A DNA stretch of 64,000 bases from Sulfurospirillum deleyianum DSM 6946 (GTDB lineage: Bacteria; Campylobacterota; Campylobacteria; Campylobacterales; Sulfurospirillaceae). Under the pieces are notes generated by a model. That model was not told the DNA's origin. It did not search any database and saw only the letters and a list, made by a program, of their open reading frames with translations. Below are positions 46,896 through 49,123 of this stretch, one piece after another. Location of the stretch: the NCBI RefSeq assembly GCF_000024885.1, contig NC_013512.1, forward strand, positions 1,426,001-1,490,000. The letters are read 5' to 3'. How positions within the stretch are numbered: position 1 is the first letter of the stretch; each line of letters begins with the position of its first letter. The position numbers were made by a program, and so were the translations under genes.

Positions 46896-47339
46896 ATGTT
46901 TGGATTAGGTATATCAGAACTCCTAATAATTGCCATCATAGCAATTATCTTTTTAGGACCAGAAAAATTACCAGAAGCAATGGTTAAAGGTGCAAAATTT
47001 TTTAAAACATTTAAAAACAGCATCAACGATGTCAAAAGTTCCTTTGAACAAGAGATGAAAATTCAAGAGCTTAAAGAAGAAGCACTTACTTATAAGAAGA
47101 AATTGGATGAAGCAGCAACCAGCGCACGCAAAGTGATTAGCTTTGATGAACTTGAAGAGATTAAAAAGACAACCCAAGGTGTTAACGATTCTCTCAAAGA
47201 GTTAGAAAACAGTGTGAAAGAAAGTGTTTCACATCCAACACCTATCTCTTCGGAAGAGACTAAAATAACGACAGCAGAAGCACTCCCTTCTTCAACTGCA
47301 TCCCAAATACCTGAAACCAAAAAAGAGGTAACTGCCTAA
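46896..47339 (+). CDS. tatB: Sec-independent translocase component TatB
   Basis: A 147-residue protein starting MFGLGISELLIIAIIAIIFL with the GP-E-LP hinge in GPEKLPEAM, then an amphipathic helix and a long charged C-terminus. This is TatB, which with TatC recognises Tat substrates such as the FccA precursor. It precedes tatC with a one-base overlap. Confidence 0.93.
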   Translation: MFGLGISELLIIAIIAIIFLGPEKLPEAMVKGAKFFKTFKNSINDVKSSFEQEMKIQELKEEALTYKKKLDEAATSARKVISFDELEEIKKTTQGVNDSLKELENSVKESVSHPTPISSEETKITTAEALPSSTASQIPETKKEVTA

Positions 47340-48100
47340 TGTTTGATGAGTTAAAACCACATCTTGCCGAACTTCGTAAACGTCTTGGTATCTCCTTAAT
47401 TGTCGTTCTTGTTATGTTCTTATGTTGTTTTGCATTTTGGCAACCCCTACTTTCTTTTATGATTGCTCCTTTAAAAGCAGTACTTCCAGAAGGGAGTAAT
47501 GTCATTTTTACAGGCGTACAAGAACCATTTTTTACTGCCATGAAAGTCGCTTTTTTTGCAGGATTTATTCTTTCACTTCCTGTTATTTTTTGGCAATTTT
47601 GGCTTTTTGTTGCACCAGGACTTTATGACAATGAAAAAAAACTTGTTGTTCCTTTTGTCTTAGCTGCCACTCTTATGTTTTTAATAGGTGCTTCTTTTTG
47701 TTATTATGTAGTTGTTCCCCTTGCTTTTGCCTTTTTGGTCGCTTTTGGTAGCGCCCTTTTTACAGCATTACCAAGCATTGGAGAGTATGTCGGCTTTTTT
47801 ACAAAATTCATTGTAGGATTTGGACTCTCTTTTGAAATGCCCGTCGTCATCTTCTTTTTCGCCAAACTAGGACTCGTAGATGATCAAGGTTTAAAAGAGT
47901 TTTTCCGCTACGCAATTGTCATTATCTTTACCGTTGCGGGGATTTTAACACCACCTGATGTTTTATCGCAATTTTTAATGGCTGGACCTTTGCTTATTTT
48001 ATATGGTATCTCCATTTTAGTTGCCAAAGCGGTCAATCCTTATCAAGCACCCGATACCAGTGAAGAGAAAAATGACGATGATGAAAACAAAGAGGACTAA
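47339..48100 (+). CDS. tatC: Sec-independent translocase component TatC
   Basis: A 253-residue six-transmembrane protein: starts MFDELKPHLAELRKRLG, with EPFFTAMKVAFFAGFILSLP, FGLSFEMPVVIFFFAKLGLV and FTVAGILTPPDVLSQ, all typical TatC motifs. The acidic tail is unusual but tolerated. Together with TatB it exports folded proteins. The next gene (queA) follows immediately. Confidence 0.95.
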   Translation: MFDELKPHLAELRKRLGISLIVVLVMFLCCFAFWQPLLSFMIAPLKAVLPEGSNVIFTGVQEPFFTAMKVAFFAGFILSLPVIFWQFWLFVAPGLYDNEKKLVVPFVLAATLMFLIGASFCYYVVVPLAFAFLVAFGSALFTALPSIGEYVGFFTKFIVGFGLSFEMPVVIFFFAKLGLVDDQGLKEFFRYAIVIIFTVAGILTPPDVLSQFLMAGPLLILYGISILVAKAVNPYQAPDTSEEKNDDDENKED

Positions 48101-48103
48101 GCT

Positions 48104-49123
48104 ATCGATCCGTTTTTAAAATCCACGTATGATTATTATCTTCCTACCGAACGTATCGCCACACATCCTGTTGAACCACGGGATGAGGCGAGACTTTTGG
48201 TCTTTAATCGAAGCAGTGGGCAGATAACACACACCTTTTTTAAGCATCTTTTTGATTTTCTTCCAGAAGATATTGGCGTTCTTCTTAACGATACAAGAGT
48301 TGTTAAAGCACGTATTTTTGGAAAAAAAGAGAGTGGCGGAGAGATAGAACTGCTTTTAAATGCCCCGTTGCAAGAGAATCTCTACTCTGTTTATATTAAA
48401 GGACGTGTTAAAAAAGGAATGAGGCTCTTTTTTGATGCAGACTTAGAAGCAGAGCTCATCGAACTCAAAGAAGATGGCACACGTCTGGTTGCTTTTTTTA
48501 GAAAAAATGAAGCACTTCATACCAAAGCTTTGTTTGATATTTTAGAAATAATTGGGCATATTCCACTTCCTCCGTATATTAAACGTGAAGATCAAGAAGA
48601 AGATAGCGTAGATTATCAAACGGTGTTTGCTAAAGAGCAAGGTGCCGTAGCAGCGCCCACCGCTTCTCTTCATTTTACAGATAGTATGTTTGAGGCACTG
48701 AAAAAACGTTATGAAACGCACTTTTTAACCTTACATGTAGGCGCAGGTACCTTTAAGCCTGTTGAAGCAGAACACATTTTAGAACATGTAATGCACTCAG
48801 AAATCTATACCATTCCAGAGCTTACATGTAAACTCATAGAGTCCAAAAAACCTCTTCTTGCGGTGGGTACAACCGTCACACGAACGGTTGAATATTATGC
48901 AAGGACAAACATACCCGTAGGCAAATGTGACCTTTTCTTGCATCCTAACAATCCACCCTTACGTGTCAATCATCTTTTAACCAATTTTCATCTTCCTAAA
49001 TCCACACTCATTATGTTAGTCGCTTCATTTATTGGGATTGAAAAAACGCTAGAATTGTATGAAGAAGCCGTAAAAGAGAAGTATCGCTTCTTCTCCTACG
49101 GCGATGCAATGCTGATTATTTAG
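48104..49123 (+). CDS. queA: S-adenosylmethionine:tRNA ribosyltransferase-isomerase QueA, apparent ATC start
   Basis: QueA makes epoxyqueuosine in tRNA. From an ATC at 48104 the protein has 339 residues and the expected N-terminal motif STYDYYLPTERIATHPVEPR. The only standard start (TTG at 48197) would remove that motif and leave 308 residues. An AGAGGA lies seven bases before the ATC, and the tatC stop is three bases away in the same frame, so no upstream ATG, GTG or TTG exists. Other motifs present are LLNDTRVVKARIFG, APTASLHFT and LHVGAGTFKPV. The gene is therefore either ATC-initiated, coupled to TatC, or affected by a sequence error. Confidence 0.9.
   Translation: MDPFLKSTYDYYLPTERIATHPVEPRDEARLLVFNRSSGQITHTFFKHLFDFLPEDIGVLLNDTRVVKARIFGKKESGGEIELLLNAPLQENLYSVYIKGRVKKGMRLFFDADLEAELIELKEDGTRLVAFFRKNEALHTKALFDILEIIGHIPLPPYIKREDQEEDSVDYQTVFAKEQGAVAAPTASLHFTDSMFEALKKRYETHFLTLHVGAGTFKPVEAEHILEHVMHSEIYTIPELTCKLIESKKPLLAVGTTVTRTVEYYARTNIPVGKCDLFLHPNNPPLRVNHLLTNFHLPKSTLIMLVASFIGIEKTLELYEEAVKEKYRFFSYGDAMLII

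Follow-up and report, generated by a model that had tools for sequence, protein, structure and literature searches.

To our knowledge, well-documented bacterial starts at AUH codons (AUC, AUA or AUU) are few. The infC gene, which encodes initiation factor IF3, starts at ATT in E. coli and at ATC in Streptomyces (PMC5472188), and an AUA start has been reported for infC of S. aureus (PMC13009471). Staphylococcal ccpN (AUA) and cvfC1 (AUU) have conserved AUH starts with a Shine-Dalgarno (SD) sequence and gave about 10% of the AUG level in reporters, and in an S. aureus reporter the AUA of ccpN reached up to 30% of AUG in rich medium (PMC13009471). The sigR gene of Streptomyces is a non-infC gene with a GTC start that is repressed by IF3, and the same report describes very few non-canonical starts as characterized (PMC5472188). 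IF3 disfavours weak pairs at the third base, and yields were very low in a reconstituted system (PMC10158994). A separate body of work concerns gene pairs that lie close together or overlap, as in ATGA or TAATG, where, in the pairs tested, reinitiation falls off sharply as the distance grows and the final 15 nt of the first gene are sufficient (PMC10666635). Here we describe a locus of Sulfurospirillum deleyianum and its relatives, the tatC-queA junction, at which both subjects may meet.

The genome of S. deleyianum consists of 2,306,351 bp in one contig, and the anti-SD pattern occurs in it three times, which is the number of published rRNA operons (PMC3035281). The window, that is, the whole stretch of DNA analysed, is 64,000 nucleotides long; positions are given within it and all features lie on the + strand. 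A putative tatB-like open reading frame (46896-47339; both its name and its ATG were read off the translation) is followed by tatC (47339-48100), which is matched by PF00902 of Pfam and TIGR00945 of NCBIfam and is the proposed source of reinitiating ribosomes. The TAA of the tatB-like frame overlaps the ATG of tatC as TAATG (47337-47341), and the entire run to queA may perhaps be translationally coupled. The tatC gene ends in TAA (48098-48100), in frame with queA and three bases upstream of the proposed start codon, and the frame continues with GCT (48101-48103), ATC (48104-48106), GAT, CCG, TTT, TTA and AAA. The SD-like sequence AGAGGA (48091-48096) lies seven bases upstream of the ATC. The GCT ATC GAT after the tatC TAA and the AGAGGA seven bases before the ATC had been read from the letters in the original prediction and are confirmed, as is its statement that ATG, GTG and TTG are absent for 30 codons: the frame is open for 340 codons from the tatC TAA to a stop codon ending at 49123, and its first canonical in-frame start is a TTG (48197-48199) at codon 33 after the TAA.

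The proposed queA coding sequence (48104-49123) encodes full-length QueA (S-adenosylmethionine:tRNA ribosyltransferase-isomerase), as its scores lie above the family cut-offs. Pfam PF02547 matches residues 8-339 with 366.6 bits (cut-off 25) and an E-value of 1.4e-109, NCBIfam TIGR00113 matches residues 8-340 with 398.6 bits (cut-off 267.45), and NCBIfam NF001140 matches residues 8-340 with 405.6 bits (cut-off 324). Three solved QueA-type chains also align to the product, from residue 8 or 9. Because the models match from residue 8, the conserved part of QueA reaches 25 residues upstream of the first canonical start, in agreement with the statement of the original prediction that a conserved N-terminus directly follows the tatC TAA.

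Relatives were searched for queA in 24 genomes of the genus, 44 of the family (match in 42) and 120 of the order (match in 116), and the start region was read in 147 genomes, of which 42 belong to the family and 105 to others. Left out of the census were one masked record (L206) and one with a C-terminal match only (G137), together with two genomes having no queA match (G029 and G030). Records L027-L032, also ATC or ATA, were not counted and appear to duplicate genomes already in the set. The motif anchor was off by some codons in L112, L139 and L140, all three of which have TTG regardless. We write ATH for ATC, ATA or ATT, g1 for Sulfurospirillum and g2-g5 for its sister genera. At the codon homologous to 48104, ATH is found in 24 of 24 Sulfurospirillum genomes. 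The single g3 genome has ATT, four of six g4 genomes and three of three g5 genomes have ATA, and the g4 exceptions have a GTG one codon before (L144) or a pair of ATG codons 7 and 8 codons upstream (L111). Thus, ATH is present in 8 of the 10 genomes of g3-g5, in seven of them as an ATA that overlaps the tatC stop (ATAG or ATAA). Genus g2 starts with TTG in all eight readable genomes and has no ATH start (0/8). For the family as a whole, ATH was found in 32 of the 42 genomes with a readable N-terminus (ATA 20, ATC 10, ATT 2), and in all of these except L012, thus in 31, the 17 codons upstream of the YDY motif contain no NTG. This comparison of the codon in relatives, which the original prediction had named as a check, strongly favours the ATC start. 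By sequence comparison, queA has the two marks of a conserved AUH start, namely that no canonical start is available and that AUH stands in register across species.

Among the 105 genomes from other families, four lack ATG, GTG and TTG in the 17 codons upstream of YDY. In one draft genome (L218; G050, family f8), an ATA lies seven codons upstream of YDY and may be an AUH start of independent origin. CTG codons are candidate queA starts in L155 and L174 (both f15) and in L173 (f18), the two f15 cases forming a CTGA overlap with the tatC stop; CTGA is also present in L219 (f15), which has TTG codons just downstream. The resulting count of non-canonical starts, 35 of 147, is a lower bound, since in other families further cases may be masked by an NTG that directly precedes the anchor.

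The position of the start is bracketed from both sides. In 21 of the 24 genus genomes a stop codon lies two codons before ATH, with all three stop types seen, and the codon directly before ATH varies within the genus (Ala, Thr, Ser or Pro). After ATH, the residues in the same 24 genomes are D (N in 2), P, L (F in 1), L, K, S (T in 1) and T (S in 2), followed by invariant Y-D-Y, and the codon changes are mostly synonymous. Over all pairs of the 24 genomes, which are not independent of each other, pN/pS rises from 0.06 in the first seven codons after ATH to 0.14 over codons 1-30 and 0.24 over codons 31-110. Judged by these ratios, strong protein-level selection acts on the codons that directly follow ATH, and these codons are translated in the queA frame. 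Given the upstream stop and the constrained codons that follow, the start must be NCN, ATH or GAY/AAY, and of these only ATH differs from AUG by a single base. Two genomes leave the bracket open: L012, where a GTG stands in frame five codons upstream of the ATA, and L107, where an ATG stands in frame 12 codons upstream of the ATT. L018 and L021 have no adjacent in-frame stop, yet the open stretch contains no NTG.

The distance from the tatC stop to ATH is 6 bases in 21 genomes, 7 in three, 4 in one and -1 in seven, the last being the ATAG or ATAA overlap of g4 and g5. An AGGA or AAGG core is kept 6-9 bases before ATH in all 32 ATH genomes, while the tatC stop shifts in position and frame. Pairs that undergo termination-reinitiation have stop and start overlapping or a few bases apart on one strand, and this arrangement is found by sequence in 32 of 32 genomes (-1 to 7 bases). 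We regard real AUH initiation of queA, at AUC in S. deleyianum, as the best explanation of these observations and as very probable; the proposed start at ATC is in this sense the best-supported reading of the locus. Coupling of queA initiation to tatC termination, which the original prediction had called likely, is also the best-supported reading and is probable on the basis of position.

Several other accounts of the junction were weighed. QueA might be made as a TatC-QueA fusion by readthrough or by a frameshift, from tatC or from a short overlapping frame, with ATC as an internal Ile codon. In agreement with this, tatC and queA share one frame with a single intervening stop in the window and in 20 further genus genomes, and NTG-started frames cross the junction in many genomes, including the window, where such a frame meets its stop 13 bases after ATC. 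However, all three stop codons occur at the end of tatC, and the offsets of 7, 4 and -1 bases (3, 1 and 7 genomes) would demand different recoding events for one outcome. Readthrough was rejected because the frame relation of tatC and queA differs between relatives, and a conserved out-of-frame start combined with a frameshift was rejected because it is absent in six of the 32 ATH genomes (L003, L009, L012, L018, L021 and L107), which have no NTG-started junction-crossing frame in either other frame. We consider a fusion very unlikely. A start at TTG 48197, giving QueA without its first 32 residues, appears even less likely. It would use the first canonical in-frame start, which has GAGG eight bases before it and is TTG at codon 33 in most genus genomes too, but it would delete the block that Pfam, NCBIfam and the solved structures match from residue 8, and the lost block (codons 1-30) is more constrained than codons 31-110. 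In addition, the first NTG elsewhere falls at codon 14, 24, 29, 32 or 34, and four genomes of sister genera (L108, L109, L110 and L114) lack any NTG through codon 35; the downstream TTG was rejected on account of these four and of the conserved N-terminal block. The chance that a sequencing or assembly error removed an ATG is negligible. The genome dates from 2010 and was obtained partly from 454 reads, but its coverage was 9.12x Sanger plus 25.3x 454 (PMC3035281), and the ATH class repeats in the genus and in g3-g5, so that an error, which the original prediction had named as a refuting outcome, is itself refuted by the codons of relatives. Overall, conservation, constrained codons, the upstream stop and the fixed SD gap against a shifting tatC stop make readthrough, frameshifting, a downstream TTG and error poor explanations.

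A further account accepts AUH as the start and denies it a regulatory role: the canonical start would have been lost by drift, and coupling would make the identity of the codon matter little. The odds of this being so seem to us about even. Laboratory E. coli can do without queuosine modification, which counts for this account, as do the two g4 genomes assigned to NTG by hand (L111 with ATG and L144 with GTG). None of the 32 ATH genomes has ATG at this codon, though ATG is one base change away. This absence lies within the behaviour of fourfold sites, as 4 of 19 conserved fourfold queA columns also never end in G; it is therefore not significant by itself, and selection against ATG at the third base was not shown by the comparison with these columns. 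On the other side, selection normally holds starts at AUG, and among 68,906 ancestral AUG, GUG or UUG starts that were reconstructed, a switch to AUU occurred in just 2 (PMC5622118). The lack of ATG in all 32 genomes, although one base change would create it, also speaks against this account.

The history of the codon was followed on a tree of the queA protein without its N-terminal codons, on which NTG was assigned by hand to L111 and L144, and L012 and L107 were scored as ATH from their register. The ATH and NTG states need at least three changes on this tree, and the third base among ATH rows needs at least six. In the simplest rooted reading, ATH may have been gained once, in the common ancestor of g1, g3, g4 and g5 (branch support 88/86), and lost twice within g4. 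The 32 ATH genomes are not 32 independent events, and one gain may explain them all. Of 33 order genomes with NTG in the preceding codon, 7 carry ATH at the aligned position (three rows having been dropped for lack of the motif), as against 32 of 32 in the ATH-start genomes, where it holds by definition of the class; L144, with its GTG one codon before, has CTA at the aligned codon. With only 7 of 33 as ATH where NTG precedes, the codon is not simply kept for Ile, and the pattern fits a start that moved by one codon. An Ile here can also be plain residue 2, since g2 and five genomes of other families have an ATH or like Ile codon after a normal start.

For a control across the genome, non-overlapping stop-to-stop ORFs of at least 100 codons were collected (n = 415), 55 from the window, including queA, and 360 from 20 stretches of 20 kb. 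A late first NTG, defined as at least 25 codons in the window and at least 20 codons in the 400 kb sample, was found in 27 of 415 ORFs (7/55 in the window, queA included, and 20/360 in the sample). Four of the 20 sample ORFs look like copies of one IS21-type gene, with equal length and the same first 60 bases, and 17 were scanned. Pfam matches were obtained for 17 of the 24 distinct late-NTG ORFs scanned, queA included, and seven had none. The six in the window besides queA gave four matches, all starting after the first NTG, and two had no match; the 17 distinct sample ORFs gave 12 matches, one of which begins before the first NTG, and five had no match. That one is a hepT-like ORF (L277:8070-8438) whose frame is shifted near the start in this genome, and its relatives in the genus have an in-frame ATG in seven of seven read, out of matches in 12 genomes. 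Within the limits of Pfam, queA is alone in this respect in about a fifth of the genome, though AUH starts may also occur among the seven ORFs that gave no match.

The infC gene of the family was examined at 30 fetched loci, of which five did not fit the pattern. An AUH start of infC, common though not obligatory for IF3-repressed starts, was not found, as all 25 readable infC genes start with TTG. At these loci (L232-L260), the bases between the in-frame stop and the TTG are GGTACACTT in 24 of 25, a stretch that is unusually constant for presumed untranslated sequence.

The mechanism that we propose is as follows. In Sulfurospirillum and in most of the sampled g3-g5 genomes, queA would be initiated at AUH, which shares its first two bases with AUG, so that the CAU anticodon of the initiator tRNA would pair with A and U and be mismatched at the third base. 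The SD-like match and the ribosomes terminating on tatC would help initiation at AUH. In E. coli, an AUU start yields about 0.3% of the AUG level (Hecht 2017, as cited in PMC10666635), so the unaided yield would be very low; if tatC-terminating ribosomes reinitiate, a codon that is poor for independent initiation may suffice. The conserved ATH at the end of tatC suggests that ribosomes finishing tatC restart on a codon that is normally rejected. The product is predicted to begin Met-Asp-Pro, and QueA may be needed in small amounts, in which case a weak start would be enough. With less certainty, the weak codon may be kept because a low, tatC-linked output of QueA is enough or is preferred, and that output is predicted to rise when IF3 proofreading is weakened. 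A literature search returned no N-terminal peptide, ribosome profile or reporter result for this queA start.

These elements can be joined into one tentative scheme, which we think possible, with the balance against it. AUH would have been fixed in the common ancestor of Sulfurospirillum and g3-g5 and kept as an IF3-dependent lock, with queA translated only by coupling and QueA made at a fraction of tatC that is set by IF3. The codon would be kept because reinitiating ribosomes accept AUA, AUC or AUU where free 30S subunits would reject them. If this holds, the ATAG and ATAA overlaps would be the non-canonical counterpart of ATGA, with the CTGA overlaps of f15 as a parallel.

The proposed queA AUH start can be located by sequence comparison, and it lies at a junction where the position and frame of the upstream stop vary naturally. 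The natural variants, with ATC, ATA or ATT, offsets from -1 to 7 and TTG, GTG or ATG in sister genomes, are suited to testing whether reinitiation relaxes the choice of start. Gene callers restricted to ATG, GTG and TTG may truncate or misplace QueA in these genomes. A literature search found nothing combining queA, start codon and Sulfurospirillum, and a search for queA, tatC and start codon gave only a two-hybrid study of H. pylori. Conserved AUH starts are already known from infC, ccpN and cvfC1; within the literature searched, what seems new is the gene (queA), the lineage and the ATAG/ATAA overlap.

Like the proposed start of queA, that of infC belongs to the AUH class, but the product of infC is the very factor by which such codons are rejected, and infC is thus self-regulating, whereas queA encodes a tRNA-modification enzyme. 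The staphylococcal genes ccpN and cvfC1 share with queA a conserved AUH start with an SD sequence. In these genes an extended SD is predicted to steer initiation to the weak codon, whereas queA has a short SD core (AGGA); cvfC1 is also first in its operon, whereas the AUH of queA adjoins or overlaps the stop of the preceding gene. The sigR start resembles that proposed for queA in being non-canonical and liable to be missed by annotation; it differs in being GTC rather than AUH and in belonging to a sigma factor, and repression by IF3 was tested for sigR and is only proposed for queA. Termination-reinitiation pairs resemble tatC-queA in having stop and start within a few bases, and the tatB-like frame and tatC form the familiar TAATG. 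The pairs described in PMC10666635 have canonical starts, whereas tatC and queA of g4 and g5 are joined by ATAG or ATAA in seven genomes.
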